A DNA stretch of 32,013 nucleotides from Holophagales bacterium (GTDB lineage Bacteria > Acidobacteriota > Holophagae > Holophagales > Holophagaceae), in contig JAITFL010000116.1 of NCBI GenBank assembly GCA_031281385.1, positions 1-32,013 of the forward strand, written 5' to 3'. Made by a program: the position numbers and the translations under genes. Positions within the stretch are counted from its first letter, which is position 1; each line of letters starts with the position of its first letter. Of this stretch, positions 10,977-25,874 are shown piece after piece. The notes under the pieces are model-generated. The model made no database searches. It saw nothing but the letters and a program-made list of their open reading frames with translations, and was not told where the DNA came from.

Positions 10977-11005
10977 TAGGAAACAGGGACTAGGGGTCAG
11001 GGAAA

Positions 11006-11134: not shown

Positions 11135-12097
11135 GTGACGAATAACAGCCGCCTTGGAAAAATATCGGGCGTTTTTGGAATGCTCTTTCTGTCCCTGATA
11201 TGGGGGGGTACCTTTGTGGTCACCAAGTTCGTGCTGCGAGAGGGCATCTCCGTTGGCGCGCTGGTGTCCCTGCGCTTTTTGCTGGGCTTCATTTTCCTAG
11301 CGGCGATGATGCTATTGCTCCGCAAGGGAATTGACAAACAGTCTGCCAAGGACGGCTTGGTGCTTGGGGCGATCTTGGTGGGGATATTTTGGCTGCAAGT
11401 GGATGGGCTTAGGTTCACAACAGCCAGCAAGAGCGGCTTTATCACGGGCCTTTCCGTCATCTTTACACCAATCGCCAGCCTATTCCTAAAAGAAAAGTTC
11501 AAGGCCGCCCAAGGCTTTTGTGCCATCCTGGCCCTAGTGGGGCTCTTCTTCTTAGTCCGCGACCCAAACGCCCCTTTCGGGGGGTGGAACAGGGGGGACA
11601 GCGAGGCGCTTGCCTGTGCCGCGCTCTGCGGCCTGCATATAACCCTAACGGCCCGCATGTCCCGCCGCTCTTCTCCCTGGACTTTGGGGCTGGGCCAAAT
11701 AACTGTTGTGGCAGTCGTCAGTTGCGCTCTGACGCTGGTTCTGCCAGCCGACATCTCCGCCGGGCAGAGCATGGGCGGGTTTGACATGCTGGGCGCAACG
11801 CTGCAAAAACCAGAGGTGTGGATTGGCCTGCTGTACCTCTCACTGCTGGCCACGTCTTTGGGATTCTACATGCAGCCCCTGCTCCAAGCAAAGATCACCG
11901 CCACCAGTGCTGCGGTTGTCTTTTGCACCGAGCCGGTTTTTGCCGTACTCATCGCCACCAGCGGCCTAGTGCCCGGCATCCACGAACACCTCACCCTAGT
12001 CCAAGCACTTGGCGGCGCACTGATAGTCGCCGCAACGCTTTTGGCGGAAATCGGCCCGTGGATGGTGGAAAAGTGGGGGCGGAAGAAACAAGCGTAA
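11135..12097 (+). CDS. EamA/DMT-family transporter
   Basis: Inner-membrane permease of the drug/metabolite transporter superfamily, about 320 residues with ten predicted membrane helices in two EamA repeats. The first begins GKISGVFGMLFLSLIWGGTFVVTK; the second begins after DSEALACAALCGLHITLTARM. The segment LYLSLLATSLGFYMQPLLQAKITATSAAVVFCTEPVFAVLIA is the typical second-repeat core. I prefer GTG 11135, which has GGGGA 5 bases upstream, to the TTG at 11105 where the frame opens. Such proteins export amino acids, metabolites or drugs, but the substrate cannot be inferred here. Confidence 0.82.
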   Translation: MTNNSRLGKISGVFGMLFLSLIWGGTFVVTKFVLREGISVGALVSLRFLLGFIFLAAMMLLLRKGIDKQSAKDGLVLGAILVGIFWLQVDGLRFTTASKSGFITGLSVIFTPIASLFLKEKFKAAQGFCAILALVGLFFLVRDPNAPFGGWNRGDSEALACAALCGLHITLTARMSRRSSPWTLGLGQITVVAVVSCALTLVLPADISAGQSMGGFDMLGATLQKPEVWIGLLYLSLLATSLGFYMQPLLQAKITATSAAVVFCTEPVFAVLIATSGLVPGIHEHLTLVQALGGALIVAATLLAEIGPWMVEKWGRKKQA

Positions 12098-12672
12098 CAT
12101 TATCAATTGAATTTATTGCCAAACTATCCGCGGACTCATCAGAGCTATCTCCATGCATCCACCCGCTCATCGAAGTCATGTCCATGTATCTACCCCTACA
12201 TAAGGCAGTGAATGAGGCGAGTACCTGGGGGTCTGGGGAGCAGCGAGGGAAGTACTCGCATGCGAGTGCGACCGAGCGAATCCCCAGTTAGCATTCGATA
12301 AGTTTTTCCAAGACCCAGCGGTGAACTAAACAAGCCGTTGGACACTTGCCCAGCAGTCAAGCAGCGCATGACCGCGCTGCGTCACGATTCGGCATAAACA
12401 TGGCGCGGCGCAGCCGCATCAATTACGGATCGCCCCCAGCTGCTCGTTGCACCAAAGAAACAACAGCCCAAATGTGGTAGAGTTTTAAAAGTGTTTCAAT
12501 TGGCAGTACAGAGTTACAAGATACAAGATAAAAAACACTGCGTAATGCGAATGTAGATTTGGCTTCATCCAAACCAACGCGAAACAGGCATCTCTGGCCC
12601 CCCCATTTACAAAAAACCCATTTGCTGTCAATAATGGGGTACAATCTCTTTTATATACATGGTGGGTGAACA
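12098..12672. other. Intergenic region holding repeat copy B and the protease leader
   Basis: Repeat copy B fills 12139-12426. The rest is AT-richer and includes GAGTTTTAAAAGTGTTTCAA (about 12479-12498), a degenerate copy of the repeat terminal motif. It also includes a run with TTGCTG and TACAAT words (12622-12645) whose spacing is too short for a standard promoter. Just before the protease ATG is GGTGGGTGA, which may serve as ribosome site. No ORF is credible. Confidence 0.5.
12139..12426 (+). repeat. Dispersed modular repeat, copy B
   Basis: Two tandem 31-base head units start at 12139 and 12170. The stem CTGGGGA (12233-12239) pairs with TCCCCAG (12281-12287) around the palindrome ACTCGCATGCGAGT (12254-12267). 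The hairpin GCAGCGC-ATGACC-GCGCTGC occupies 12361-12380. It closes with the triloop hairpin GCGGC-GCA-GCCGC followed by ATCAAT. It starts 42 bases after the EamA stop, in the same orientation as that gene. Confidence 0.88.
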
Positions 12673-15222
12673 ATGGCTATCCAAACCTTTGTCAATATGA
12701 GCCATCGAAACTGTAAGATGGCGATGAACGCGGTTTTTGCCGCCGCGCTTTGCCTTTTTTCTGCGTCCGCGCTTTTGGGGCAATCCGACCAAGGCCCTGC
12801 GCTCCTCGTCCAAGCCGCGCCGCTGAACCCTGCCTTTGTGAAGTGGCAGGAGGCCCAAAAGGAAAGGAAGGCGCGCATAGCACTGGGTCTGCCCGCTGAC
12901 CCAATGACATTCGGGCAAGCAGATCCGTACGGCTGGCGCTTTGGTTACATACCAGACCCATGCTTGCCCCCAACGCCCAAAGCTCCCTTGACCCAGTCGG
13001 AAGCTTTAGTCAAGGCTGGCTTGGCGACTTTCCAGCCAATAAACGACCCACGAACTTGGCTACCTTCTGGGCTGCCACCTGGGATCTCCCCCATACGCAA
13101 CCAAGGCAAATATGGCACATGCTGGGCATTCAGTTCCATAGCCGCATTGGAATATGCCTTGTACAAAGCTGGCACTCCAATGGAACTATCAGAGTGGCAT
13201 TTGTCGTATTTTGCGTACAATCCCATAAGTGGCTTTCCTGCCTTTACCAAAGACCCAGTCGAGTCCGGGAAGCATGAAACATTCGACCAAGGCGGCAATT
13301 TTTCGATGGCCCAGGCCATCATGTCCCGAGGGGATTTGGCCGGCGGGCCAGTCCCTCGTGCTTCCAGCACTTACGCCGGCGCACTGCCCCTAGCAAGCAC
13401 ACCTTCGGTTGCGACCATTTCAGAAGCCTTACTATTCAAAACTGCCAGCCCAGACACCATCAAGGGCCTAGTGCAGGAGTATGGCGTGGTGGCTATTTCC
13501 ATGTTTTGGCCCGATATTTATTCCCAGCAATATGACAGTTCCACATACTCGTTCCGTTACGTGCAGAGCGATGAACCAAAGACGAACCATGGCGTCAACA
13601 TTGTGGGCTGGGATGACACTTGGCCCAAGTCCAAGTTCCCGGCAGGCAATCAGCCTTCGACAGACGGCGCGTGGATTGTCCGCAACAGTTGGGGGCCACT
13701 CCCCTATCCCCCCCATGATGACGGCTACTTTTACATGTCCTACGACACCACTATTTCTTACATCGGTGTATATTCTGGGTTCACCGAAGTGGATGCAAAA
13801 ACATACCAACATGACATGCACGGAAGAGTTATAGGGTATCGCTTTGCTAGCCAGACCACATGGATGTCTAACATCTTCAAAGCCACTGCAAACCATTCAA
13901 TAAAAGCTGTGGCGTTTTACACTGTGGGAGAGGGTGCGACCTATGAGATATACGTCAAGAAAGGCGTTGGCGGCAACCCGAATACCGGTACGTTGGCACT
14001 TGGCCCACAGTCTGGCACATTGAAAAGTCCGGGCTATCATAGGGTGCCCTTAAGTAGCCCTATCAGCGTTAGCGCAGACGAAAAATTTGCCGTCATCGTA
14101 AAAGCGACCGATCTTGGTGACTGGCCATTTAGCGTTTCTGAGGCTTACGAGGGCTTTTCCGATAGTGCAACGGCCACCTTAGGAGTTGGCTGGATTTCAC
14201 TCAATGGGTCAAATTGGTATGACGCAACTGATGTCCTTGAATCAACATCCAGCATCTGCCTAAAAGCATTTGCAGATGACGGTACCGAAACACCAGACAT
14301 CAGGGTCTCCGTCACGCCCAAGACTGTTTCCTTGCAACCGGGCCAAACACAGACGTTCACGGCAACTGTCACCGGCACAACCAATCAAACCGTAGTTTGG
14401 TCAACCAATGGCGGCTCGATAACTGCGGCGGGTGTCTATACTGCCCCTGCCGTTGCAGGTACTTACACAGTCACAGCCATCAGCGTTGTTGACGCTTCCC
14501 ATCCGGGTACTGCCACGGTGACAGTGGCGGCGGCCTCTGCGATTTCGGTTTCCGTAACGCCCAAAACTATATCCTTACAGCCGGGCAAAACGCAACTTTT
14601 CACAGCAAATGTTACGGGTACTTCCAACAACGCCGTTACATGGTTTGTCTCATCTGGGCAAGGAACCATAACCCAAGCTGGCCTATACACGGCCCCGGCG
14701 ATTGCGGACACCTACACGGTCACTGCCATCAGCCAAGCGGACACGTCCAAATCTGACACAGCGACAGTGGCGGTCAGCGCGGCATCTATAGTGTTTACAA
14801 GCATCCCCAAGGCCCTCTTTGTAAATGGCACCGCCCAATTGCAGGCGGTAGCAGATGGGCTGGACAACACCGCCGTCAAATGGGATGTCCCATCTGGGCA
14901 AGGAACCATAACCCAAGCTGGTGCCTACACTGCACCCGCGACAGTTCCCTCTGGCGATGGGAGAGCAACGATAACCGCCACCAGCGATCAGGCTCCAGAC
15001 CTGAACCGCCAAGCCTGGATACTCATCAGGCCCTTGGACTTTGCCAATTTCGGCAGCGACAACAACACAAAGACAAACCCGCAACTGTTGGGCTTGGCCC
15101 ACGCCTTTGGCTCAAAAAGTGGAGACCCAGAGTACGACCAAAAATACGACATAAACGGCGATGGCTTCATTGACGATGACGATTTGGCAATGCTCTTCAA
15201 GATCATGGGGTGGTTACTTTAG
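12673..15222 (+). CDS. Secreted papain-like (C1A) protease with lectin-like, Ig-like and dockerin-like domains
   Basis: An 849-residue multidomain exported cysteine protease. The N-terminal hydrophobic signal is at residues 16-37. The C1A domain spans about 130-370, with Gln144 and Cys150 in PIRNQGKYGTCWAFSS, His306 in TNHGVNIVGWDD and Asn338 in WIVRNSWG, so the papain catalytic set is complete. Residues about 378-530 resemble the lectin-like domain that follows C1 peptidases in other secreted proteins. Three Ig-like repeats follow (about 540-785), each with a PGQTQTFTATVTG or related core. The end, with YDINGDGFIDDDDLAMLF, is a dockerin/EF-hand-like calcium loop. It probably degrades or processes extracellular protein, possibly while anchored to a partner. 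Two Ig repeats share an exact 31-base tract. Confidence 0.9.
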   Translation: MAIQTFVNMSHRNCKMAMNAVFAAALCLFSASALLGQSDQGPALLVQAAPLNPAFVKWQEAQKERKARIALGLPADPMTFGQADPYGWRFGYIPDPCLPPTPKAPLTQSEALVKAGLATFQPINDPRTWLPSGLPPGISPIRNQGKYGTCWAFSSIAALEYALYKAGTPMELSEWHLSYFAYNPISGFPAFTKDPVESGKHETFDQGGNFSMAQAIMSRGDLAGGPVPRASSTYAGALPLASTPSVATISEALLFKTASPDTIKGLVQEYGVVAISMFWPDIYSQQYDSSTYSFRYVQSDEPKTNHGVNIVGWDDTWPKSKFPAGNQPSTDGAWIVRNSWGPLPYPPHDDGYFYMSYDTTISYIGVYSGFTEVDAKTYQHDMHGRVIGYRFASQTTWMSNIFKATANHSIKAVAFYTVGEGATYEIYVKKGVGGNPNTGTLALGPQSGTLKSPGYHRVPLSSPISVSADEKFAVIVKATDLGDWPFSVSEAYEGFSDSATATLGVGWISLNGSNWYDATDVLESTSSICLKAFADDGTETPDIRVSVTPKTVSLQPGQTQTFTATVTGTTNQTVVWSTNGGSITAAGVYTAPAVAGTYTVTAISVVDASHPGTATVTVAAASAISVSVTPKTISLQPGKTQLFTANVTGTSNNAVTWFVSSGQGTITQAGLYTAPAIADTYTVTAISQADTSKSDTATVAVSAASIVFTSIPKALFVNGTAQLQAVADGLDNTAVKWDVPSGQGTITQAGAYTAPATVPSGDGRATITATSDQAPDLNRQAWILIRPLDFANFGSDNNTKTNPQLLGLAHAFGSKSGDPEYDQKYDINGDGFIDDDDLAMLFKIMGWLL
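14651..14921 (+). repeat. Exact 31-base direct repeat inside the protease gene
   Basis: The tract beginning CATCTGGGCAAGGAACCATA at 14651-14681 recurs exactly at 14891-14921. The period is 240 bases, one 80-residue Ig-like domain. Flanking codons have diverged more, so this is either a recent domain duplication or local gene conversion. Confidence 0.9.
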
Positions 15223-15283
15223 TTTTGACTTGCGCCCTAATTTTTTGCAGCACCCAGCTAATTTCGAGCTACAAGGTTTCGAT

Positions 15284-15319
15284 TAGCAAATTGACAATGG
15301 ACAATTAACAATTGACAAT
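15284..15319 (+). repeat. ATTGACA-type short repeat, copy 1
   Basis: An intergenic tract starting ATTAGCAAATTGACAATGGA and continuing with overlapping ATTGACA/ATTAACA heptamers. A near-identical tract lies at 24010-24050 downstream of lexA. It sits just before the ribosome site of the lipoprotein gene. Confidence 0.8.
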
Positions 15320-15332
15320 GAATGAGGTTCCT

Positions 15333-15905
15333 ATGAAAAAGACAATCATCTTCCTTGCACCCGCCACCTTGGCATTGGCTGGCCTGCTGGCCTGCGGTGG
15401 GGGCGGCGACAAAAAGCCTGTCCCCGCCACCAAGCTGGAGTACACCGACCCGGCTGGCACAGGCTACAGGTTCGTTAAGGATTCGGCGCGTAGCACCCCT
15501 ACCAAGCTGGTGCTGGAACTCAAAGGCCCTGCATCGGGAGTGGGACGCGGCGTTTCATTCAGCGTTACGTCCGATGCGACAAAAGTCAGCTTTGTCAAGG
15601 TTGAATCGTCCGACCCAGAATTTGTGCAAAATGAGGTTTTCGACCTAGGAACGAGCGAATACAAGCTGTTCAAGGGCGTGGTAGATGGCAACTCGCTGGG
15701 AGTGTCCGTTGCCCAAAAGGGTACCACGGCCTCGGACAAACCCCTCGATGGCACTCTTGTCCGCATCGCGCTGGAGATGAAGATAAGCGCTAACATGACT
15801 CAAAACACGGCAATTACATTCACGGCGTCAAACGCAAAGGAACTGCCGTCCAGCGGCGGCTCCCGGTCTATAACCATTGCCTGTGGCGCATTGGTGGCGA
15901 AGTAA
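15333..15905 (+). CDS. Secreted lipoprotein, cohesin-like fold possible
   Basis: About 190-residue predicted lipoprotein. The ATG at 15333 is preferred to an upstream in-frame TTG because GAGG lies 5 bases ahead and the protein then opens MKKTIIFLAPATLALAGLLAC, a lipoprotein signal with lipobox LLAC. The mature part is beta-rich (TKLVLELKGPASGVGRGVSFSVTSDATKVSFVKVE), ending GSRSITIACGALVAK. It follows the dockerin-like end of the protease by 110 bases. A beta-sandwich lipoprotein next to a dockerin-bearing enzyme invites the idea of a cohesin-like surface anchor, but no diagnostic motif proves this. Confidence 0.65.
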   Translation: MKKTIIFLAPATLALAGLLACGGGGDKKPVPATKLEYTDPAGTGYRFVKDSARSTPTKLVLELKGPASGVGRGVSFSVTSDATKVSFVKVESSDPEFVQNEVFDLGTSEYKLFKGVVDGNSLGVSVAQKGTTASDKPLDGTLVRIALEMKISANMTQNTAITFTASNAKELPSSGGSRSITIACGALVAK

Positions 15906-15926
15906 TACCAGTTACAAGTTACAAGA

Positions 15927-16383
15927 GGCCGCTGCGCGGCAGTATTGATGCGGCTACGCCGCGCCATGATTATGCCGAATGATGACGCAGCGAGGTCATT
16001 CGCTGCGTGTCCTTGTGGCGGGTACCCATCGGCCTGTTGCATGGAAAATCGAGTCGCAGCGTTCCATATCCGCTCACCGCCTGTCGGCGGCTCGCTCCAT
16101 TTCACTCGCGCCTCTTAGCCCATTCGGGCCTTCAGAGAGGTTTGGAAAAGCCTTCCGAATGCTAACTGGGGATTCGCTCGACCCCGCCGCGCGTACACAT
16201 CGAACCCTCTTTTTAAGCCGCCCAAGTGCTGCTGGCGTTTGAGGCTGCACCGCAGCCTCAAACGCTCATTACACGAGGGCGTCTTCCCCCCAGACCCCCG
16301 ATACTCGCCGCGCTAACTGCCCTATGTAGGGGCTGATACATGGGCACGGCTTCGATGAGTTGGTGTGCGATGCTGTTTTGCAA
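15927..16383 (-). repeat. Dispersed modular repeat, copy C (reverse orientation)
   Basis: Read on the minus strand this copy has one head unit (16355-16335) flanked outside by TTGCAAAA (16383-16376). It then has the CTGGGG block, an optional 71-base long-hairpin module (16285-16215), and the hairpin ACGCAGCGA-ATGACC-TCGCTGCGT (16008-15985). Two closing triloop hairpins (GCGGC-GTA-GCCGC and GCCGC-GCA-GCGGC) end it. It is the only copy in this window with its head facing the left end. Its head faces that of copy D across the orphan gene at 16436. Confidence 0.86.
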
Positions 16384-16435
16384 GTGGTTCGCTTTTGTGC
16401 CGTGTTAATGTTACAATCAATTTGAGGGGTGGGCG

Positions 16436-16804
16436 ATGGAAACACCAAAAGAGGTTCGCAGCTTGATTGACCAGCTCGGCCAGGCCTTGGTACAGGCCAT
16501 TATCTCCGACACTGCGGGCCAAGACCTCATCAAGCAGATTCAGCAGACAGGCTTTGAAGTTGGGATAATGCTGGAGGCCACGGTGGCACTGCACCAAAAA
16601 GACAAAGAAATCGAAGGGCATGAAGAAGAGTGCGATGACGAATCAATGGAGATAGCAGAAGCACTGGCTCGATATTTTTCTAGGGACTATTCCAGAGCCG
16701 CTAGGCACAAGGAATCTGAGACCTCTTGTGAAAACATCAGAAATTTCCAGTGGTCCGAGGAAGACAAAGCACTGATGTGCAACTTCCGCATCCGTCTCGA
16801 TTAG
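16436..16804 (+). CDS. Small hypothetical protein (122 aa) between inverted repeat copies
   Basis: No family recognised. The protein begins METPKEVRSLIDQLGQALVQAI and is largely helical and acidic, with HEEECDDESMEIAEALARYFS in the middle. It has no signal peptide or membrane span, so it is probably cytoplasmic. A TACAAT -10 (about 16411-16416) lies some 20 bases upstream and GAGGGG precedes the ATG, so expression is plausible. It is flanked on the left by repeat copy C and on the right by copy D, in opposite orientations with their head ends facing the gene. That bracket is unusual, but no motif suggests mobility, toxin or antitoxin function. Confidence 0.6.
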   Translation: METPKEVRSLIDQLGQALVQAIISDTAGQDLIKQIQQTGFEVGIMLEATVALHQKDKEIEGHEEECDDESMEIAEALARYFSRDYSRAARHKESETSCENIRNFQWSEEDKALMCNFRIRLD

Positions 16805-16827
16805 GTTTAGTCAGCCAATTGAGTTTC

Positions 16828-17170
16828 TTGCAAAATTCTCTTCGCCCTCATCGAAGCCATTTCCATGTATCAGCCCAAATATAGAGCAGTAAGCGAGGCG
16901 AGTACTAGGGGTCTGGGGAGTAGCGAGGGAGCCGCTCGCATGCGAGCGGGACTGAGCGAATCCCCAGTTAGTATTCGGGAAGCTTTTCCAAGCCCCGGCA
17001 CAAAACGCAACAAGCCGAAAAATGCTCGTCCCGAGGTCAAGCAGCGCATGACCGCGCTGCGGAGCCCAATCGGCATAAACATGGCGCGGGCGAAGCCCGC
17101 ATCAGATATTGCCGCGAAGCGGCCACAGCTCACTGCCCACATTGTCAGAGTTTTGCAAGAAGCTCAACGG
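16828..17170 (+). repeat. Dispersed modular repeat, copy D
   Basis: Bounded by TTGCAAAA at 16828-16835 and GTTTTGCAAGAAGCTCAAC at 17150-17168. One head unit starts at 16851. CTGGGGA (16913-16919) pairs with TCCCCAG (16961-16967) around the perfect palindrome CCGCTCGCATGCGAGCGG (16932-16949). GCAGCGC-ATGACC-GCGCTGC is at 17041-17060, and two closing hairpins follow. This is the best-bounded copy. The frame spanning 16865-17179 is repeat sequence, not a gene. Confidence 0.88.
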
Positions 17171-17181
17171 ACAATATAAAG

Positions 17182-18300
17182 ATGGCGATTATTCTATCCG
17201 ACCCAGAAGAGTACACTGATAGGCCCAAAATCGCCGCGCCTGAGCAAAAATTTATAGCCAATGCCGCAGACCTTGGGGTGGAGGGGCTTCAAGGAATATT
17301 CCATAGGCTGGCAGAACCCCCATATCGCGCAGAACAGGCGTTTGAGGGGATATACAAGCACCGCTGGACTTCATGGCAACAGTTCAGCAACCTGCCGAAG
17401 AGCCTTAGGGGCAAGCTGGAAATTGTTTGCCCGATAGAATGGCCGAAGCCCGCCCAGTCCTTGGTTTCTAGCGATGGCTCCACCAAGCACGCAATAGAAC
17501 TGGCCGATGGCCACTTGGTTGAATGTGTGTACATTCCATACGACAACCGCGCTACGATGTGCATCTCCAGCCAAGTGGGTTGCGCTATGGGCTGCGCGTT
17601 TTGCGCCACGGGGCTGATGGGGTTCAAGAGGCACCTAAAATCGGCGGAGATTCTCGGGCAGGTTATGTCCATGCTGTGTTTTCACAACCATCCCCCAAAC
17701 CTTCCATTTAACATAGTCTTCATGGGCATGGGGGAGCCGCTCAACAACTTATTCGAGGTGATGGAAGCTTTTTCAACATTGACAAACCCCTTGGGTCTGT
17801 CTATGCCGCGAAAGCGCGTAACTGTTTCGACCGCAGGGATGGTGACTGGAATAAAAGAACTGGCGATAATCAGCCCCCGCCCCCGCCTTGCCGTGAGCCT
17901 AAATGCAACGACAGACGAAAATAGATCTAAGGTCATGCCGATAAACAAATCTTGGGGCCTAGAGAAATTGGCTGACGCGCTGAAGCCCTTTCCGCTTGAA
18001 AGGGGAGAACGAATCACCTTGGAGTATGTGGCCATAAAGGGAATCTCGGACAGCATGGAGGACGCGGCTAGGCTTTCGCGCTTTGCGGGCGGATTTCCAT
18101 CTAAAATAAACCTCATTCCATTCAATCCATCGCCCGGCCTAGATTTTACGCCCCCTAGCGAAACTAGGCTGGACGAGATGGGGGCATACCTAGCAGACAA
18201 GGGGCACATCGTAGCCATACGCCGCAGCAGAGGGCTGGACGTGGGGGGCGCCTGCGGGCAACTCGCTGGCGCAGGGAAAAATCCGTTGAATGGCGACTAA
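17182..18300 (+). CDS. rlmN: 23S rRNA (adenine2503-C2)-methyltransferase / tRNA m2A37 methyltransferase RlmN
   Basis: Radical-SAM methyltransferase that methylates C2 of A2503 in 23S rRNA and A37 in some tRNAs, using a methyl-cysteine intermediate. The cluster motif C134-x3-C138-x2-C141 is in SSQVGCAMGCAFCATGLMG, and GMGEPLNN (about 182-189) is the family SAM-contact motif. The methyl-carrying Cys358 is in GGACGQLAG near the C terminus. At 372 residues it is of normal length. The start lies 12 bases after the end of repeat copy D, so its promoter must be in or beyond the repeat tail; no strong ribosome site is seen. Its stop overlaps the convergent xerC stop by 4 bases. Confidence 0.96.
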   Translation: MAIILSDPEEYTDRPKIAAPEQKFIANAADLGVEGLQGIFHRLAEPPYRAEQAFEGIYKHRWTSWQQFSNLPKSLRGKLEIVCPIEWPKPAQSLVSSDGSTKHAIELADGHLVECVYIPYDNRATMCISSQVGCAMGCAFCATGLMGFKRHLKSAEILGQVMSMLCFHNHPPNLPFNIVFMGMGEPLNNLFEVMEAFSTLTNPLGLSMPRKRVTVSTAGMVTGIKELAIISPRPRLAVSLNATTDENRSKVMPINKSWGLEKLADALKPFPLERGERITLEYVAIKGISDSMEDAARLSRFAGGFPSKINLIPFNPSPGLDFTPPSETRLDEMGAYLADKGHIVAIRRSRGLDVGGACGQLAGAGKNPLNGD

Positions 18301-19235
18301 TGCTTTCTCGCCCTTGGGTGCGCGGATTCGTATGTCTTCGCCAGTTGGTCAAAGTTGAGGTGGGTGTACCTTTGGGTGGCGCTTAGGCTGGAGTGGCCCA
18401 GCAGCTCTTGAATGGCCCTAAGGTCCATCCCCTTGTTCAGCAGGTGCGTGGCGAATGAGTGCCTTAGCGCGTGGGGGCTTATTTTGGCCCTAATGGCGGC
18501 ATCGTCTAGGGCCTGGGACAAAAATTCGCGCACGCTCGTGGTCGTCAGGCGCCCGCCCCTTTGGTTGATGAACAGGGCCGCAGTGGGCGGCAATTTTTTT
18601 GAGCTCACAAACTCGGCGCGGAATGTCTTATACGTTTCCAGCGCATCGGCTGCGGCATCATGGAAAGGCACGGCCCTCTCTTTGTTGCCCTTGCCGACCA
18701 CGCGCATCATTCGCCCCCTCATGTCTATGTCTTGAAAATCCAGCCCTGTCAATTCTGACACGCGCAGGCCGCAGGCGTACAGCATTTCGAGGATGCATCT
18801 GGTACGTGAACTCACAAAGTCAATAGGGGCGATGCTTTCCATGAGGTTCCAGCTTTCACCCTCGGTTAAGAAATTTGGCAACCTTTTGGGCAGCTTTGGA
18901 TTCCTAAGCCCAGACGCGGGGTTTCTGTCTAGGCGTCCAGTTTCGTAAAGCCATTTGAAAAAGCCACGAACCGTTGAGAGTATTCGGGCCCTAGTGGTTG
19001 GGTCTAGGTCATTTTCGCCCAGTGCAAGGGCCAGCCGCTGGACGTCCCTGGGCTTTACGTCCCATGACCCCCATTTTTCTTTTGCCGCGTGGCCCGTTAG
19101 TTTTTCTAAGTCTTGGCTCTGGGCCTTGATGGTGTTTGGCGACAGGCCCCTACCGCTCTGCTCCAGCAGAAAAGCGGCGATGTCGGCATCCATCGCGCCG
19201 CCATTCTCGGCATCGGCCTTGGCCTCTTTAGTCAT
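18297..19235 (-). CDS. xerC: Tyrosine recombinase XerC/XerD-type
   Basis: A 312-residue site-specific recombinase likely to resolve chromosome dimers. The N-terminal SAM-like core-binding domain spans about 15-105. The C-terminal catalytic domain has Arg158 (ACGLRVSELTGL), Lys182 (GKGNKERAVPF), His255 and Arg258 (HALRHSFATHLL), His281 (LGHSSLSATQRYTH) and the nucleophile Tyr290, a complete set. The frame opens at 19310, but ATG 19235 fits family length and overlaps the rsmI stop by 8 bases, indicating coupling to rsmI. Whether it is XerC, XerD or a single-recombinase XerH-type cannot be decided without the genome's other recombinases. No dif site was seen in this window. Confidence 0.9.
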   Translation of the reverse strand: MTKEAKADAENGGAMDADIAAFLLEQSGRGLSPNTIKAQSQDLEKLTGHAAKEKWGSWDVKPRDVQRLALALGENDLDPTTRARILSTVRGFFKWLYETGRLDRNPASGLRNPKLPKRLPNFLTEGESWNLMESIAPIDFVSSRTRCILEMLYACGLRVSELTGLDFQDIDMRGRMMRVVGKGNKERAVPFHDAAADALETYKTFRAEFVSSKKLPPTAALFINQRGGRLTTTSVREFLSQALDDAAIRAKISPHALRHSFATHLLNKGMDLRAIQELLGHSSLSATQRYTHLNFDQLAKTYESAHPRARKH

Positions 19236-20103
19236 TGTTCCTATCGGCGGCCAGCTTATAGACGTCCGATGGCGCCATGCCCAAGTGCCGCGCCAAAGGC
19301 TTTGCCGCATCGCGCAGCGTCATCCCGCCTTCCCTTGCCGCGTCCAAGAACCTGCCGGCCCATTCGGGGAGCTGCCCAATGGGTTCACCGTGGTCATTCA
19401 ACGCGGTTTTTTCGTTCTCGATGGTGCGCTTGGCCCCCGCGCCAGCAATTACTAGCACGATTTCGCCCTTTGGTTCGGTACCCAACTGCGCCAAGATTTG
19501 GGCGGGCGTCCCCCTGTGCCACGTCTCGTGCAGCTTGGTCAATTCGCGCCCAAGGGCTATCTCCCTATCTGGCATGGCTTCGTTGATGTCGTTCAGGGCT
19601 TCTTCTATCCTGTGGGGCGTTTCAAAAACAACAGAAGTGTCTTCCCTGCCGGCCAACTGACGCAAGAAAGAACGCCTGGCTTCCGCCCTGCTGGGCAAAA
19701 ACCCCAAAAAGCTAAAAATGTGCGAGGGCAGCCCCGAAGCGGCGACAGCCAGAATGACAACAGACGGGCCGGGAAGGGCGACAACCTCTGCGCCGGATTC
19801 CCTGGCAAGCCGCGCCAGTTCGAAGCCAGGGTCATTTATGCCTGGCGTGCCCGCGTCAGAGCAATAGCAAATGGTCTTTCCTTGGGCTAGTTCACTGGCC
19901 AGCCCACCGGCCTCACGGGCGCCGGCGTGGTCATCGAAGCGCCTCAAGGGCTTTGCAATGTCCAAGTGTTTCAGCAGATAACCCGTGCGCCTAGTGTCCT
20001 CGCAGACCACAACATCGCACGAACCCAGCGCCTCAACGGCCCTGTAAGTAATATCCCCCAAGTTGCCTATGGGAGTGGGGACGAGTATTAGCCGACCTTT
20101 CAT
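19228..20103 (-). CDS. rsmI: 16S rRNA (cytidine1402-2'-O)-methyltransferase RsmI
   Basis: A 291-residue SAM-dependent enzyme of the tetrapyrrole-methylase fold that 2'-O-methylates C1402 in the 16S decoding centre. Diagnostic motifs are LVPTPIGNLGDITYRAVEAL at the N terminus, CEDTRRTGYLL (about 34-44), CYCSDAGTPGINDPGFELA (about 80-98) and ALPGPSVVILAVAASGLP (about 108-125). The start at 20103 gives the canonical MKGRLILVPTP opening. It is the upstream partner of xerC in a two-gene minus-strand unit. The upstream gap to the divergent methyltransferase gene holds a strong hairpin at 20191-20242. Confidence 0.95.
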   Translation of the reverse strand: MKGRLILVPTPIGNLGDITYRAVEALGSCDVVVCEDTRRTGYLLKHLDIAKPLRRFDDHAGAREAGGLASELAQGKTICYCSDAGTPGINDPGFELARLARESGAEVVALPGPSVVILAVAASGLPSHIFSFLGFLPSRAEARRSFLRQLAGREDTSVVFETPHRIEEALNDINEAMPDREIALGRELTKLHETWHRGTPAQILAQLGTEPKGEIVLVIAGAGAKRTIENEKTALNDHGEPIGQLPEWAGRFLDAAREGGMTLRDAAKPLARHLGMAPSDVYKLAADRNND

Positions 20104-20190
20104 GGGTACAGTTTATCGCGTTTCCCCTATTGATTGGCACCGACTCTCATAGATTACGGCTGCGCTTTCCGTTCCGCTTTTAATGCAGCC

Positions 20191-20242
20191 TATCGCCGTA
20201 AAGTCTTTGACGCTGCCGCGCAGCGTCAAAGACAACGGCGAT
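20191..20242. repeat. Strong hairpin upstream of rsmI
   Basis: GTCTTTGACGCTGC (20203-20216) and GCAGCGTCAAAGAC (20220-20233) form a perfect 14-base-pair stem with a CGC loop. The outer arms TATCGCCGT and ACGGCGATA extend it with a small internal loop. It has no T-run and is not a terminator for any facing gene. Confidence 0.8.
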
Positions 20243-20529
20243 AAGTCTTCATTCCTTGTGAAGGTGCAGTTAACCCATCGCGGCGAACGGATTTGCGTTT
20301 CAACGACAACCCCAGCGTTCCACTAGGCGGCTCGCTTCACTCTCTCGGTATCCTGCGCTTGCGCTCCGGATACGCGAGACTTCCTCCATCGGTCTCTGCG
20401 GCACATCGGCTGCCAATGCTGCCATGTGCGTTTTCAGTTTGTTCGCCTTCATTATCGGCGCAGCCTATGCACTCCGTGCCATTCCCTACGGGAAGGGCTA
20501 TGATGTCATGCGAACCAATTGCCAGCATT

Positions 20530-20574
20530 TTGCTTTTCCCCCAATCCGCTCTATAATGGAAAATCATTCAGGAG
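20530..20574 (+). promoter_or_regulatory. Promoter and ribosome site of the methyltransferase gene
   Basis: TTGCTT (20530-20535) and a perfect TATAAT (20552-20557) are spaced 16 bases apart. AGGAG at 20570-20574 lies 8 bases before a GTG at 20583. Together these fix the GTG as the start rather than the upstream in-frame ATG at 20424, which lies ahead of the promoter. Confidence 0.7.
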
Positions 20575-20582
20575 TGCATTCC

Positions 20583-22112
20583 GTGACTACAACCACCCTT
20601 GCAGAGTACGACCAAGTTCCGTACCTCGCCAATCCGCTTCCCCAAACCCACCCATCGCGCATAGCTGCAATAGCCAGCATGTTCGGGCTTTCATTCGTAC
20701 CCCCCAAATCCGCAAGGGTGCTGGAACTTGGCTGTGCCTCTGGCGTCAATTTGCTGGGCATGGCCCATTTTATGCCAGATGCCAAATTTGTGGGCGTTGA
20801 CCTTTCCATCGTCCAAGTTCACGAGGCCCAAAGGCGGGCCAAGGCCATTGCCGCCAACAACGTGACCTATCATCACATGAGCATAGACGAAATAACCCCC
20901 GATTTCGGCGAGTTCGACTACATCATAGCCCATGGCGTCTATAGCTGGGTTCCCACAGATGTGCAGAAGGCTATCCTACGAGTGTGCAGGGAGAACCTGA
21001 GCAATGATGGAATAGCCTTTGTCAGCTATAACGTGCTGCCTGGCTGGAGGATGAAGCAGGCCGCTAGGGACGTATTCATGGCCCTCACTCCCCCCAACGT
21101 CCCCGCCGCCACGCGCTGGGAATATGGTATCAACTGGATCAGGGAGATGATGGAAACCAACAAGTCGGAGGATAAAAGGCCGCTTCTGCACCAAACGATA
21201 GCAAATGAACTAGAAAACATTTTGGTCAAAAAGGATTTGCGGTACTTGGCGCATGAGTACCTTGAAGTTCACAATGAGCCACTGTTGTTCAGGGAATTTT
21301 TGAGCCACATGAGCGATGCGGAGCTGACCTATTTGGGCGATGCAGAGCCTAGCACCATGGTTCGCCACCTGACGCATCCAGTATTGTCGGAGTTTTTCAA
21401 AAAGCACCCCCCCGGTGGCATGGCCGAGACGGAGCAGGCCATAGACATTATTACGGGGCGCACTTTCCGTCAATCATTGATGGTGAAGGGCAGCCGCAAG
21501 GCCAAGATGAACAGGGCCCTCACGCCGGATTTTTTCAAAAACCTACACATCCAAGCCCGCTTGGCAAAGACAACAGACCAAGACGGCCAGCTAAAATACG
21601 TACACCAAAGGCACGGCCCACTAAACGCCCAACCGCCGTACGGAACGGGCGCCTTGGAAGTGTTGACCGAGCATGCGGGAATGCCGGCCTCATACAAATC
21701 GCTGCTTGACAAATTTGTCCAGGCCACCCAAGGGACAGAACCCATATTCGCGGAAATCCTTTTTTCCATGCTTGGCATGAACGGCATAGAGATTTTTGCA
21801 GACCCGTATATGCCAAATCTCCCAAAGGGTGCAACGCCGCTGGCCATCCTAGACGCAGAAAGCGGCAGGAATGTGACCACCAATTCCGTTGGCGAAGCCA
21901 TTGGGCTGGATCCGCTCCAAGTGCTGATTCTTCCCATCTTGAAGGGCGACTGGGATCGCGATGAATCAATCGCCAAGCTCTTGTCCATGCACTCAAAAGG
22001 GTTGTTCAACATCAACCCCGCCCCAGCGGACGAAGATCAGATGAAACAAGTGCTGGGCGGCATACTCGACAAGGCCGAGGGCGTCTTTAAAGTCTATGGC
22101 ATTGTTGGGTAG
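20583..22112 (+). CDS. Class I methyltransferase with methyltransferase regulatory domain
   Basis: A 509-residue SAM-dependent methyltransferase of unknown substrate. Motif I is RVLELGCASGVNLLGMAHF (about residues 46-64), followed by the acidic-loop motif FVGVDLS and the motif-IV-like segment FDYIIAHGVYSWVP. C-terminal to the Rossmann domain is the methyltransferase regulatory domain (about 215-300: LRYLAHEYLEVHNEPLLFRE, the most recognisable block). A long C-terminal extension of winged-helix type follows. Related proteins are annotated as putative lysine or small-molecule methyltransferases. GTG 20583 is supported by the promoter and AGGAG. A terminator follows the stop, so it is probably monocistronic. 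Confidence 0.85.
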   Translation: MTTTTLAEYDQVPYLANPLPQTHPSRIAAIASMFGLSFVPPKSARVLELGCASGVNLLGMAHFMPDAKFVGVDLSIVQVHEAQRRAKAIAANNVTYHHMSIDEITPDFGEFDYIIAHGVYSWVPTDVQKAILRVCRENLSNDGIAFVSYNVLPGWRMKQAARDVFMALTPPNVPAATRWEYGINWIREMMETNKSEDKRPLLHQTIANELENILVKKDLRYLAHEYLEVHNEPLLFREFLSHMSDAELTYLGDAEPSTMVRHLTHPVLSEFFKKHPPGGMAETEQAIDIITGRTFRQSLMVKGSRKAKMNRALTPDFFKNLHIQARLAKTTDQDGQLKYVHQRHGPLNAQPPYGTGALEVLTEHAGMPASYKSLLDKFVQATQGTEPIFAEILFSMLGMNGIEIFADPYMPNLPKGATPLAILDAESGRNVTTNSVGEAIGLDPLQVLILPILKGDWDRDESIAKLLSMHSKGLFNINPAPADEDQMKQVLGGILDKAEGVFKVYGIVG

Positions 22113-22118
22113 GATAAT

Positions 22119-22148
22119 AACGCGCAGCCAGTGCGGGCGCGTTTTTTA
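22119..22148 (+). terminator. Rho-independent terminator of the methyltransferase gene
   Basis: AACGCGC (22119-22125) pairs with GCGCGTT (22137-22143). The run of six T covers 22142-22147. It begins 7 bases after the TAG stop and is the cleanest intrinsic terminator in the window. Confidence 0.8.
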
Positions 22149-22153
22149 TTGAT

Positions 22154-22180
22154 TGACAAAAACCACTAAGATTTATGCTC
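22154..22180 (+). promoter_or_regulatory. Possible promoter of the small membrane-protein gene
   Basis: A perfect TTGACA (22154-22159) follows the terminator. TATGCT (22175-22180) lies 15 bases further, one to two bases closer than optimal. The gene starts at 22238 with GAGG about 6 bases ahead of its ATG. Confidence 0.45.
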
Positions 22181-22237
22181 GGCCAGCCGATAAGTATCTA
22201 GCATGGGCGCTTTGCCCAAGCGAAAAAGAGGTATGGG

Positions 22238-22624
22238 ATGGCCCAAGGAAAAACAATGCTGATGGTGACGCTGTTCGCCCTGCCCGTGTTGGCGGGGGGG
22301 ACTTTTGCGGGCTACAAGTACCTGTGGGAAAAGCCCAAGCCCGACCTTGACAAAAAATACTTGGCCTGCATGGTTAGCGTGGCGGAGCAGGATGGCAAAA
22401 ATGGCCTGTTGGTCACGATAGAAAACTCTGGCCCAACGGCGTATAACGTGGAATGGGAGATAATCGAACCAGTCAACGTGGCCATCAGGCGTGGAAACAA
22501 AATAGTGAACAAAAAGAGCACGGAGACCTTTTTCCACATAGCTTTAGACCAAGAAAAGCCATCATCGGGCGAAGTGAAGCTGCTCAAGTATGAAGGCACT
22601 GCGGACAAGGCACTGGCTTTCTAA
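22238..22624 (+). CDS. Small membrane-anchored hypothetical protein (128 aa)
   Basis: No family recognised. The N terminus MAQGKTMLMVTLFALPVLAG has one hydrophobic span (about 6-26) that can act as a membrane anchor or uncleaved signal. The rest (about 33-128) is a polar, probably beta-rich extracytoplasmic domain: GLLVTIENSGPTAYNVEWEI and KSTETFFHIALDQEKPSSGEVK. The ENSG...TAYNVEW pattern is reminiscent of small Ig-like domains, but this is weak. It has its own likely promoter after an upstream terminator and is followed within 10 bases by the end of repeat copy F. Confidence 0.65.
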   Translation: MAQGKTMLMVTLFALPVLAGGTFAGYKYLWEKPKPDLDKKYLACMVSVAEQDGKNGLLVTIENSGPTAYNVEWEIIEPVNVAIRRGNKIVNKKSTETFFHIALDQEKPSSGEVKLLKYEGTADKALAF

Positions 22625-22631
22625 AAGCCTT

Positions 22632-23060
22632 TTGCAAAAATACCCGCACGCCCATCGAAGCCATGTCCATGTATCAACCCCTGCATAGGGCAGTAGGCGA
22701 GGCGAGTACCCGGGGTCTGGGGAAGACGCCCTAGTGCAATGAGCGTTTGAGGCTGCAGTGCAGCATCAAATGCCAGCAGCACTTGGGCGGCTTAAAAAGG
22801 GGCAGCGCGAGCTTGCGAGCGATGCAACAAGCGAGTTCCCCAGTTAAGCATTAGGGCGGACTCCATGAACCGGCATTGAACGAGTCAAGTCACCGGGTCA
22901 TCTTCCCGAGTACGTAAGAAATACACCGGGCAAATACCTCCGCCGGGTACCAATTTTGCCCGGTAGTACCGCAGGGCGAATGACCTCGCCGCGTGTTCAT
23001 CTGGCGCGATGGAATTGCTATTCGTCAGCAAAAAAAGATTTGGGATAGTTTTTCAAGTGT
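22632..23060 (+). repeat. Dispersed modular repeat, copy F
   Basis: The left end is TTGCAAAA (22632-22639), only 8 bases after a stop codon, and one head unit starts at 22655. CTGGGGAA (22717-22724) pairs with TTCCCCAG (22836-22843) and encloses the 71-base long-hairpin module (22723-22793). GGCGA-ATGACC-TCGCC is at 22975-22990, and the degenerate end motif GTTTTTCAAG is at 23048-23057. Its central part follows the copy A subfamily. Confidence 0.86.
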
Positions 23061-23193
23061 ATCCGTTGTCTTAACTAAATTAGGCAACTTGTTTGTTTAC
23101 ATTGTTTACGCCAGAACCCATAATCTCTAGCAGTAAATTCAAAGCAATCTATCGTGGGCATCAAAAAAAATCTCAAAAAAAACAGAAACCCCC

Positions 23194-23222
23194 TTGACAA
23201 AATTTCGTTTTTTTTTCATAAT
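23194..23222 (+). promoter_or_regulatory. lexA promoter, apparently leaderless
   Basis: TTGACA (23194-23199) and CATAAT (23217-23222) are spaced by exactly 17 bases, the best hexamer pair in this window. The LexA ATG at 23229 begins 7 bases after the -10, where transcription itself should start. No ribosome site fits in between. GTATATGAATAC (23225-23236), an imperfect palindrome over the start, may be an operator; this is speculative. Confidence 0.75.
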
Positions 23223-23228
23223 GGGTAT

Positions 23229-23948
23229 ATGAATACAGCCGACCTCACCCGCAGCCAACAGAAAGTCCTCCAATTCGTCGAGCACTTTGCCCAGACAGAA
23301 CAAAGGAGCCCAACCTTAAAAGAGATTGCCGATGGCGTCGGGAGCGCCGCCGTCAGCACTATCCACAAGCACGTGCTGCACCTGATCGAAAAAGGGTTTT
23401 TGGAAAGGAGGCACGGACGCGGCAACAACATTGTCTTACGAGCGCGCACTGAAAACGGGGCGCGCCACGGCGTCCCGCCACAGGGCGGCCCATCTACCCA
23501 TCTATCGGCGGATTCGGCTGTAGTCAGCGGGTTCGCCTCTAGCGGCACTGATGGCGTTGATGGCTCTACCAAGGTATTCCCTTTTTACGGGGACGTTGCG
23601 GCCGGTGCGCCTTTGGTGCCTGAATCGTACGCCACGCCAATAGAGCTTCCGCACCCAATCCACCGCAACAAGCAAGACTTGTTCGTTCTTAGAGTAAGGG
23701 GCGACTCCATGATGGACGACTCCATCTTAGATGGCGACCTTGTCGTGCTGCAGCGCAGGGGCGAATACCGCAACGGCGACCGCGTGGTGGCCCTAATTGA
23801 CGGCGAAGAAGCCACGCTTAAAGAGCTAAGGCGCGACGGGGAGAGCATTTGGCTCATCCCCCACAACCCCAGCTTGGCCCCGCGCCACTACGACATAGAC
23901 CGCGTGGAAGTGCAGGGCGTCCTCGTGGGCGTTATGAGAAGCTGCTGA
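23229..23948 (+). CDS. lexA: LexA repressor
   Basis: SOS-response repressor, 239 residues. The N-terminal winged helix (about 5-70) has SPTLKEIADGVGSAAVSTIHKHVLHL. The C-terminal latent protease has its cleavage site Ala125-Gly126 (GDVAAGAPL), nucleophile Ser160 (VRGDSMMDD) and Lys198 (EEATLKEL). The Gly-Ser distance equals that of E. coli LexA. The linker between the domains (about 72-115, Gly/Ser-rich) is some 35-40 residues longer than usual. The start at 23229 is set by family alignment and by the promoter just upstream. DNA damage with RecA should trigger self-cleavage. No classic LexA box was identified, so its operator in this lineage is unknown. Confidence 0.93.
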   Translation: MNTADLTRSQQKVLQFVEHFAQTEQRSPTLKEIADGVGSAAVSTIHKHVLHLIEKGFLERRHGRGNNIVLRARTENGARHGVPPQGGPSTHLSADSAVVSGFASSGTDGVDGSTKVFPFYGDVAAGAPLVPESYATPIELPHPIHRNKQDLFVLRVRGDSMMDDSILDGDLVVLQRRGEYRNGDRVVALIDGEEATLKELRRDGESIWLIPHNPSLAPRHYDIDRVEVQGVLVGVMRSC

Positions 23949-24009
23949 ATTTTAAGTTGTGGGTTGAATATTTAGCAAAACCTAGCCAATTTTGGGCTGC
24001 TAGGCTCCT

Positions 24010-24050
24010 ATTAGCAAATTGACAATGGACAGTTGACAATTGACAATTGT
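24010..24050 (+). repeat. ATTGACA-type short repeat, copy 2
   Basis: It starts ATTAGCAAATTGACAATGGA, identical over 20 bases to 15284-15303, then continues with overlapping heptamers (ATTGACA). An imperfect ACAGGC-TGC-GCCTGT hairpin follows at about 24056-24070. It lies in the 241-base lexA-lolA gap, which also ends with a GTTTTGCAAG-like motif (about 24131-24150). Confidence 0.8.
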
Positions 24051-24189
24051 GGATACAGGCTGCGCCTGTGTTGATTTTCTTAATTGGGGCGGCATTCGTT
24101 TTGTGATAGCTTTTATCATCTTGAATGAAGGATTTTTGCAAGTGTTTCAACAATCAGTGACTAGTCGCCGCTTGTATGTGGAACCATAG

Positions 24190-24762
24190 ATGATACTTAC
24201 AATAAGCACACTCATCGCTCTGGCGGCGCAGCCAGCCGCATTGCCCCCTTGGTGGGACAACTGGAAGCAGCTTAAGGCGTTCAGCAGCCCCTTTGTGCAG
24301 GAGGGCGAAAGCGCGGCTTTCGGCAAGCTGACAAAAAAAGGCTCGATAATAGCCGCAAGGGGCGGCAGGCTTCGCCTTGAATACGACAAAGGCGCACTGC
24401 TCCTTTGCGATGGCGTAACTCTGACACAGTACGACCCAAGCACCCGCACCGCCCAGAGCCACCAAATAGACAGCATCTCGGAAAAATGGCCGCTCCTTCG
24501 CCTTCTCACAGACCCTGCATCGCTGGGCCAAGTGTACAGCGTGGCCTCGCCAGATGGGGCAACGGTGGTGCTGTCCCCCAAAAGGCAGGGCTTGCCGGAA
24601 GTGTCGCTACAGGGCAAGGGCGCGTTTTTGCACAAGGCAGAATGGAAGGACGGCACTGGCGCAAAACAAGCACTGACCTTTACTGCGCCAAAGTCCCCAG
24701 CCGACCCGGGCAAGGCACCATTTGTCTTTAAGGCACCAGCGGGTATAAACTGGATTCGCTAG
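24190..24762 (+). CDS. lolA: LolA-like outer-membrane lipoprotein carrier
   Basis: A 190-residue periplasmic protein resembling LolA, which ferries lipoproteins from the LolCDE complex to the outer membrane. It has a short N-terminal hydrophobic signal (MILTISTLIALAAQPA), then WWDNWKQLKAFSSPFVQEGE, the typical opening strand/helix of LolA. KKGSIIAARGGRLRLEYDKG and LLLCDGVTLTQYDPSTRTA follow, the DGxxxxxYDP element being characteristic. The length is close to the family norm. No good ribosome site precedes the ATG, so the start is moderately certain. The divergence is enough that a LolA-fold relative with another role is possible. Confidence 0.75.
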   Translation: MILTISTLIALAAQPAALPPWWDNWKQLKAFSSPFVQEGESAAFGKLTKKGSIIAARGGRLRLEYDKGALLLCDGVTLTQYDPSTRTAQSHQIDSISEKWPLLRLLTDPASLGQVYSVASPDGATVVLSPKRQGLPEVSLQGKGAFLHKAEWKDGTGAKQALTFTAPKSPADPGKAPFVFKAPAGINWIR

Positions 24763-24781
24763 AGCGGCTGGGGATAGACCC

Positions 24782-25456
24782 CTATTTTTTAATCTCTTCC
24801 GCTTTCAATATCAACACAGGCTGGACAGGCACATCAGCGTATTCATTTATCTTTTTCGTCTGCACCTTTGATATTTTGTCAACCACGTCCATGCCGGCCA
24901 CGACTTTCCCAAAAGGGCAGTGGCCGTAGTCCATCAGGCTCTTTTCTTTGAAGTCCAAGTTTTTGTTGTGCTTCACGTTGATGAAAAACTGCGAGGATGC
25001 GCCAAATGGGTCACCCGGTACGTAGGCCATTGATATGGTTCCGCGCGTGTTCAGCAGCCCCCTAGACTTGGCCACGTCTGCCTCGTTTGCGCCGATGACC
25101 TTGGACGCTTTTTTGCCCATGTCGGGAGTGTGGCCACCGCTCTGGATCATAAAGTCGGGTATTACTCGATGGAAGATGAGTCCATCAAAAAAACCCTCCC
25201 TGACCAGTTTTTGAAAATTCGCTACAGTCTTGGGCGCGGCATCTGGCAATAGTTCTATCGTGATGTCGCCCATAGAGGTCTTGACCCTGATCATGGTGCT
25301 ATAGGGCACTTGGTCGGCTACAGCGACTTGTGCGGCCTCTGCCTGCGGGGGCTGAACGTCAACGCTGTCGGCCTTTTCGCCCTCACGCTGACAGGCGAAG
25401 AATGTGGCCGCCAATGCTATGGCTGCAATAGCGAATATGCGGTTGCGGGCTTTCAT
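24782..25456 (-). CDS. Cyclophilin-type peptidyl-prolyl isomerase lipoprotein
   Basis: A 224-residue protein with start ATG 25456, set by GGAGG 6-7 bases upstream; the frame opens further up at 25603 inside repeat copy G. The N terminus MKARNRIFAIAAIALAATFF leads into a lipobox Cys (TFFAC), so it should be a lipoprotein. The cyclophilin domain spans about 57-222, with FHRVIPDFMIQSGGHTPDMG, SMAYVPGDPFGASSQFFINV and FGKVVAGMDVVDKI. It probably catalyses prolyl cis-trans isomerisation during folding of exported proteins. TATAAT on the minus strand at 25483-25478 is a good -10. Copy G lies just upstream of this promoter. Confidence 0.9.
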   Translation of the reverse strand: MKARNRIFAIAAIALAATFFACQREGEKADSVDVQPPQAEAAQVAVADQVPYSTMIRVKTSMGDITIELLPDAAPKTVANFQKLVREGFFDGLIFHRVIPDFMIQSGGHTPDMGKKASKVIGANEADVAKSRGLLNTRGTISMAYVPGDPFGASSQFFINVKHNKNLDFKEKSLMDYGHCPFGKVVAGMDVVDKISKVQTKKINEYADVPVQPVLILKAEEIKK

Positions 25457-25507
25457 GTCAGTGCCTCCTGAATAGAAGTAATTATAGCAAATTGTTTCTC
25501 TATCAAA

Positions 25508-25720
25508 CATCCGCCCGTTCCCGAGTGCCGCAGGGGGTCTGGGTGGTAGCGAGGGGGGGCCGCTCGCATGCGAGTGGGACCCGAGCGGACCCCCAGTTAG
25601 CATTCGGAAAGTTTTTCCCTGCCACGGAGTAAAATGCGACAGGCCGAATGATCTCTGTTCCGCAGTCGAGCGGCGAATGACCTCGCCGCGTGTTCAACCG
25701 GCACAATGGAGTTGTCAGTA
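25508..25720 (+). repeat. Dispersed modular repeat, copy G (partial)
   Basis: The head is truncated and lacks the 31-base unit. It keeps the GGGGTCTGGG block, the palindrome CCGCTCGCATGCGAGTGG (25560-25577, one wobble), CCCCCAGTTAGCATTCGG, and the hairpin GCGGCGA-ATGACC-TCGCCGC (25670-25689). It is the only copy lying between two minus-strand genes, so it is antisense to their direction, and it lies upstream of the cyclophilin promoter. Confidence 0.8.
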
Positions 25721-25765
25721 CATGACAAAGCATATCAGATGAGTTCCGACCGGCGCTGCTGAACG

Positions 25766-25832
25766 AACCAAGCTTCCCATCGTACCCTTCGTACGCATGT
25801 GGGGCTATTAGCCTCGCACAATAAACTTGGTT
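25766..25832 (-). repeat. Hairpin region downstream of bshA
   Basis: AACCAAG (25766-25772) can pair with CTTGGTT (25826-25832), enclosing CGTAC-CCTTC-GTACG (25781-25795). It lies about 43 bases past the bshA stop in transcript terms. There is no T-run, so a role in termination or RNA stability is conjecture. Confidence 0.4.
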
Positions 25833-25874
25833 TGGTTGTTCAAGTACCTCCACCACACGCAAATTACATGACGC

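Follow-up and report, generated by a model that had tools for sequence, protein, structure and literature searches.

A family of interspersed repeats is described here in a 32,013-bp stretch of a Holophagales bacterium genome (contig JAITFL010000116.1; the whole stretch is called the window below). The repeats are probably non-autonomous transposable elements resembling miniature inverted-repeat transposable elements (MITEs), and the folded interior of the element is best read as maintained. A preliminary description of the window had singled out a hairpin with an invariant ATGACC loop and had treated it as an independent element read through its loop. That part of the description has to be replaced, as the hairpin lies inside a transposon-like repeat bounded by terminal inverted repeats. 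The repeat holding the hairpins occurs in seven copies within 19 kb, full copies being 350–470 bp long. Six copies have the same orientation and one is inverted, and all are set between unrelated genes. Terminal repeats around different interiors, dispersal, a module common to distant copies and the lack of a coding signature make the MITE-like reading the best one.

Copies and modules of the repeat

Six long copies (A, B, C, D, F and G) and one left half (H) were identified, and a profile of the six long copies reveals no further long copy within the window. The copies, their modules and one element with a different interior are as follows.

9501–9904, plus strand: copy A, several 31-nt tandem units on the left; right end GTTGAGGCATTTGCAAAACCCT (minus strand, 9904–9883), left end weak
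9554–9634, plus strand: 31-nt tandem units on the left side of A (starts 9554, 9585, 9616) and B (also 12141, 12172)
12106–12500, plus strand: copy B, both terminal inverted repeats present
12232–12287, plus strand: copy B's central hairpin (CTGGGG...CCCCAG), internal loops G.A-rich; the same in D at 16912–16967
15925–16393, minus strand: copy C, inverted, left end 16393; right end unrecognizable, 15925 approximate; 72-nt palindromic insert and a further insert
16818–17168, plus strand: copy D, clearest terminal inverted repeats (19/21 identical)
22622–23066, plus strand: copy F, nearly the same insert as C
22723–22791, plus strand: palindromic insert module of copy F, 64/69 identical to the C insert; the rest of F against C 157/267
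23963–24151, plus strand: 189-bp stretch whose interior differs but whose inward-facing terminal repeats are the same, between LexA-like and LolA-like genes; AATTGAC heptamer array
25491–25853, plus strand: copy G, lacking some 45 nt of the left conserved block
28188–28311, plus strand: copy H, left part only; no right end and no ATGACC hairpin

The six long copies display pairwise identities of 57–77% when the C/F insert is excluded. The GC content of the seven copies is 52–61%, and that of the window 53.4%. In a full copy, the left block holds 31-nt units in varying number and is followed by the central CTGGGG hairpin, with the ATGACC hairpin toward the right. The 31-nt unit motif, with up to 3 mismatches, has 15 matches against 2.86 expected, a number reached in none of 100 shuffles; nine of the 15 lie within the left block of the repeat and six elsewhere.

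Copies C and F carry a 69–72-nt palindromic insert at an identical position in the central hairpin. The inserts are 93% alike, while the two copies are otherwise 59% alike and each is nearest to a different copy. By eye, the predicted protein P0241 of another metagenome contig (see below) appears to hold another insert in the same central hairpin. The modules therefore seem to move or to be exchanged separately.

Terminal inverted repeats

The repeat is bounded by imperfect terminal inverted repeats of about 22 bp, absent from the preliminary description, with the consensus ATTGAGTCACTTGCAAAACTCT. The two ends of copy D match at 19 of 21 positions, which was seen in 0 of 2000 shuffles and in 0.4% of random window stretches. 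The end-to-end match of copy A has a P of 0.03 by shuffles and of 0.06 by window stretches. A profile made from five right ends was scored on the 80 nt to the left of each of the seven copies. It recognizes the left ends with a Fisher combined P of 3.7e-5, and with P below 0.05 in four of the seven: B (0.009), C (0.021), D (0.006) and H (0.016).

A combined profile comprises 11 ends, five right and six left, with the left end of A omitted, and these ends themselves receive good scores. Its fourth-best site, nt 24151–24130 of the minus strand (score 26.4), was not in the set from which the profile was built, and it faces a site at 23963 of the plus strand (13.7). In 200 simulated windows the maximum site scored 23.2, as against 26.4, and an inward-facing pair of this kind was produced in none. 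The left end of this 189-bp element, at 13.7, is unremarkable taken alone. The element is AT-rich (39% GC). That the ends are real and common to more than one interior is supported most strongly by the site at 24151.

Separately, an 81-nt repeat is found at 15239–15319 and 23967–24047, the latter copy inside the 189-bp element. The two are 81% identical and end in AATTGAC heptamer arrays, which contain promoter-like TTGACA-N17-GACAAT matches upstream of two genes.

The ATGACC hairpin

The five intact ATGACC hairpins and the disturbed one of copy A were located where the preliminary description had put them. The hairpin scan shows stems of 7 bp in B (12361–12380), D (17041–17060) and G (25670–25689), and of 5 bp in F (22975–22990). 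The hairpin of copy C (16008–15985, minus strand) has a 9-bp stem. Copy A (9815–9837) retains GCGAATGACC with the ATGACC loop at 9821–9826, its right arm is broken, and the 3′ arm pairs downstream instead (CATCGCGC...GCGCGATG). Copy F harbors an additional hairpin, CCGGGCAAA...TTTTGCCCGG, at 22926–22963 immediately before the ATGACC hairpin; here copy A carries no more than about ten additional bases, and the remaining copies carry none.

The six copies with the loop were aligned over 28 columns with seven stem pairs (alignment A4). Pairing is kept in 37 of the 42 stem cells. The paired switches noted earlier are borne out, with the loop-closing pair being A-T in four copies and C-G in two, and the fifth pair from the loop A-T in three and G-C in three. 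Changes on both sides occur at these two pairs, one in three copies and the other in two, so that covariation, whose absence would have counted against the preliminary reading, is present among the six copies tested. Among 500 shuffles of A4, 2 did as well in paired percentage, in both-sides cells and in covariation score.

A neutral simulation was carried out in which a perfect 7-bp hairpin evolved on the tree of the copies, built from 264 background columns, in 15,000 runs. P is 0.012 for the pairing, 0.021 for the both-sides cells and 3e-4 for both jointly. At least four perfect copies arise with P 0.003, and six invariant loop columns with P 5e-4. Because the hairpin was picked after inspection, these values should be discounted, perhaps by the number of hairpins per element. 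The earlier suggestion of selection on a folded nucleic acid is supported for the ATGACC stem by the neutral simulation, and for the central hairpin it is suggested.

By column shuffling, an invariant run of at least 6 appears in 11% of cases, and the loop alone is unexceptional on that measure. A run of at least 10, as in GGGGTCTGGG and CCCCAGTTAG, appears in 0.09%. The CTGGGG/CCCCAG hairpin is therefore more strongly conserved than the ATGACC loop. The decamer GCGNATGACC, with at most one mismatch, has 13 matches against 8.25 expected; 13 was reached in 8 of 100 shuffles, and enrichment is not clear.

The central hairpin and strand preference

The paired variation previously noticed in the CTGGGG stem is also found: CTGGGGTGC/GCACCCCAG in A, CTGGGGA/TCCCCAG in B and D, and CTGGGGAA/TTCCCCAG in F. 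The predicted fold of B and D is CTGGGGA-GYA-GC-GA-GG-...-CC or CT-GA-GC-GAA-TCCCCAG, with a palindromic tip. By eye, the three outer pairs of this palindrome all differ between B and D and are all paired, two having changed on both sides and one on one side.

The central hairpin was folded in the sense of four copies and in the antisense of B and D alone. The sense strand gives z scores of -5.7 (B) and -5.0 (D), and the antisense strand -2.8 and -3.2. Internal loops that are G.A-rich on both sides fit the sense strand of the central hairpin better than the antisense strand. Folding of whole copies exhibits no strand preference, the lower z falling on the sense strand in three of the seven copies.

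Coding potential and relatives in other contigs

A small protein encoded by the left block, where one frame is open in several copies (MSMYQPLHRAVGEASTRGLG in F), was considered and rejected, as no codon pattern is seen. Among five copies the variable columns of the left block fall evenly on the codon positions (5, 6 and 7). The ratio of nonsynonymous to synonymous variation (pN/pS) of this frame is 0.45, similar to another forward frame (0.49) and to one reverse frame (0.52). No reading frame is common to the copies, and the left-block frame stops at differing places. Copies A, B, C, D and G are overlapped by five open reading frames (ORFs) of 101–157 codons, none of which has a Pfam match.

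The translated left-block frame matches three short predicted proteins, P0241–P0243, in other metagenome contigs. P0243 continues through KQRMTALR, which is the translated ATGACC hairpin of the B/D type. P0242 is a predicted protein of 63 residues, of which about 26 resemble the start of a VapC toxin and are followed by translated repeat. The resemblance to VapC comes from a single weak match (E 9, 42% over 26 residues), which starts exactly at an annotated VapC start; if it is true, a repeat has inserted into a disrupted gene or downstream of it. Predicted small proteins of contigs like these, P0241–P0243 among them, can be translated repeat, and caution is needed in annotation.

The core GGCGAGTAY-N0-4-GGGGTCTGGGG was found in four stretches of genome contigs, with only short matches around the pattern, which by estimate is about the chance number. 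Five patterns gave no stretch in viral contigs. The short hairpin pattern gave 23 there, the best with 11.6 bits over 81 profile positions, which is taken as chance. Plasmids and phages searched with the repeat patterns gave no match, nor did 99 Planctomycetota genomes, which are uninformative on the Holophagae-like lineage. None of the 4227 Rfam families matches the window at the gathering score. A relaxed Rfam search yielded six matches, all to microRNA, small nucleolar RNA or long noncoding RNA families below their cut-offs. Group I and II introns and HEARO-type RNAs were also considered, with no Rfam match in their support, as were integron attC sites and CRISPR, at which no dedicated search was aimed.

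Gene setting

Two proteins of the window, an RlmN-like protein (17182–18300) and a cyclophilin (24782 onward), have Holophagaceae as the best organism-named match, with 64% and 58% identity respectively, among the 120 best matches listed for each. Their closest relatives among these matches are proteins of metagenome contigs (84–90%). These two conserved proteins point to a Holophagae-like member of the Acidobacteriota as the host. By Pfam the genes of the window are mostly housekeeping, including the RlmN-like gene and those for a phage-integrase-family protein, a tetrapyrrole methylase, LexA, LolA, cyclophilin, glycosyltransferases, YggT and DivIVA. The phage-integrase-family protein (18297–19310) is presumably XerC.

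Five of the seven copies start within 66 nt past the stop codon of a same-direction gene, or overlap it. Copy H starts at the base that follows the DivIVA-family gene's stop codon, and the left end of copy F includes the stop codon of ORF 22238–22624. Copy D starts 13 bases after a stop codon and occupies most of the gap between ORF 16436–16804 and the rlmN-like gene. Copies C and G are antisense to their neighboring genes.

Other small palindromes are present in the window. Those of the GCGGGC-TTC-GCCCGC type, with T-rich tails, occur on the minus strand at 11012–11026, 12404–12418 and 17085–17101, that is, on the right side of B and D and solitary at 11012; they form a separate small palindromic repeat. 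Two AT-rich palindromes lie at 27027–27298 between a glycosyltransferase gene and the YggT-family gene. The second (27250–27298) is similar to Rfam mir-4081 below the cut-off (41 vs 70 bits), and is perhaps another inverted-repeat element.

Interpretation

In the proposed course of events, the terminal repeats were acted on by a transposase encoded elsewhere, which would have spread the copies into intergenic regions, in many cases shortly after stop codons. The interior might stay foldable because a transcript or single strand in its folded form is important for tolerance near genes or for transposition. Of the MITE features set out in a section of PMC3049150, the repeat has terminal inverted repeats, clear in D and weaker in A, B, F and G. 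The six long copies measure 351–469 bp (the right border of C being approximate) with no protein gene recognized in them, and the repeat is multi-copy, dispersed and mostly intergenic.

Several observations weigh against the MITE-like reading. Strict membership in the MITE class is unproven because no target-site duplication is seen at the final borders of the 6 elements tested, and because the GC content of the long copies (52–60%) is ordinary, not AT-rich; the repeat works like a MITE, and older copies may have lost the duplication. At 57–77% likeness among copies, no recent movement is seen. The within-copy match of the two ends is not significant in any of B, F and G. With the right-end profile the left end of A has a P of 0.87, and those of F (0.08) and G (0.11) are not significant alone. 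The profile test is not fully blind, since the right ends were placed after their likeness to the left ends had been noticed by eye. The combined profile recognizes no right end in C or H, and it finds five further single sites in the window with scores of 13.9–17.4, so that weak single ends prove nothing. Among the 25 main ORFs scanned there is no transposase family, the sole recombinase being the phage-integrase-family protein, which lies beside a tetrapyrrole-methylase-family gene. Whole P0242 has no match in plasmids and no PIN family in Pfam. As to selection on the fold, 140 of 500 shuffles of A4 reach its number of both-sides pairs and 464 its number of pair types, and in the neutral simulation two or more both-sides pairs arise with a P of 0.32, which is not significant.

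These last figures bear on the possibility that the repeats are alike by descent and the stems unconstrained. There are only two covarying pairs in six copies, the hairpin was chosen after looking, and an invariant run of the length of the loop is no rarity. The joint neutral P (3e-4) and that of the loop speak against chance, as do the similar paired changes of the central hairpin, and we consider it improbable. A functional structured RNA, either a cis-acting 3′-region element or a small RNA whose ATGACC loop is a protein- or RNA-binding site, would agree with the unchanging loop of all six copies possessing it (P 5e-4 in the tree-based simulation), with the stem covariation, with the better folding of the central hairpin on one strand in the two copies compared, and with the five copies near or overlapping stop codons. 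It is unlikely in view of the whole-copy folds, which favor no strand, the antisense position of C and G, the lack of the hairpin in H and its broken form in A. No Rfam family reaches the gathering score, and terminal inverted repeats and a module common to distant copies are unexpected of an ordinary RNA gene. In a related model, the RNA would be borne by the transposon, with transcribed copies folding on one strand around the G.A-rich internal loops and the invariant ATGACC loop bound by a protein or RNA acting in trans, which would serve either movement of the element or host 3′ ends; selection would then preserve the fold while the copies drifted to their 57–77% identity. We hold this model to be doubtful.

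Repetitive extragenic palindromic (REP) sequences and their hairpin-forming pairs (REPINs), moved by a REP-associated tyrosine transposase (RAYT), could have clustered into a composite. In favor of this origin, the present repeats hold short GC-rich palindromes in intergenic positions with paired stem changes. Compensatory changes have been described as common in REPINs (PMC3116915), and subfamilies of REPs are distinguished by complementary variants of the stem (PMC3733652), so that paired stem changes have a precedent in small palindromic bacterial repeats. The consistent GTAG/CGTC tag is missing, however, CGTC being found by eye at the end of the stem in no more than two of the six copies, B and C. 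The conserved unit is 350–470 bp with its own terminal repeats instead of 20–40 bp, no transposase family is found in the 25 ORFs, and we give this origin little credence. Least probable of all is that the hairpins are transcription terminators or 3′-end stabilizers alike by descent. The start of five of the seven copies close after, or overlapping, a stop codon would suit such a role, yet a terminator scan of nt 9400–28400 (34 found, 24.6 expected) includes none of the ATGACC hairpins, while the GC-rich palindromes on the right of B and D do appear in it, on the minus strand.

For the MITE-like elements preferred here, a literature search, which was not exhaustive, found no title or abstract naming such a repeat. 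They would be a family of interspersed repeats, folded and modular and apparently not described before, of a Holophagae-like lineage, with defined ends that allow annotation. If the fold is selected on one strand, they offer a testable case of why miniature elements keep an RNA-like structure.

Comparison with known systems

Structured RNAs reported from Acidobacteria include the Acido-1 and Acido-Lenti-1 RNA motifs. The present repeats differ from these, as the window contains no Rfam family at the gathering score. They share with REP and REPIN sequences the palindromes with compensatory stem changes, as the relevant parts of PMC3733652 and PMC3116915 portray them, and differ in size, in having terminal repeats, in the lack of a consistent GTAG/CGTC tag and in that no RAYT is found among the 25 scanned ORFs.

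Like bacterial MITEs, the repeats are short, have no recognized gene, possess terminal inverted repeats, are multi-copy and intergenic, and are strongly base-paired; here, two different interiors lie between the same ends. Unlike MITEs as that section of PMC3049150 presents them, they have no target-site duplication (6/6 elements) and their long copies are not AT-rich.

The BOX elements of Streptococcus pneumoniae differ in that here the unit is 31 nt and on the left side, and that the host belongs to another phylum, the comparison being by description only. As described in part of PMC3049150, BOX elements are modular interspersed repeats with variable tandem internal units and a predicted RNA fold, and are thought to be non-autonomous and mobile. 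To the extent of that description, they may be regarded as the nearest architectural analogue known to us.

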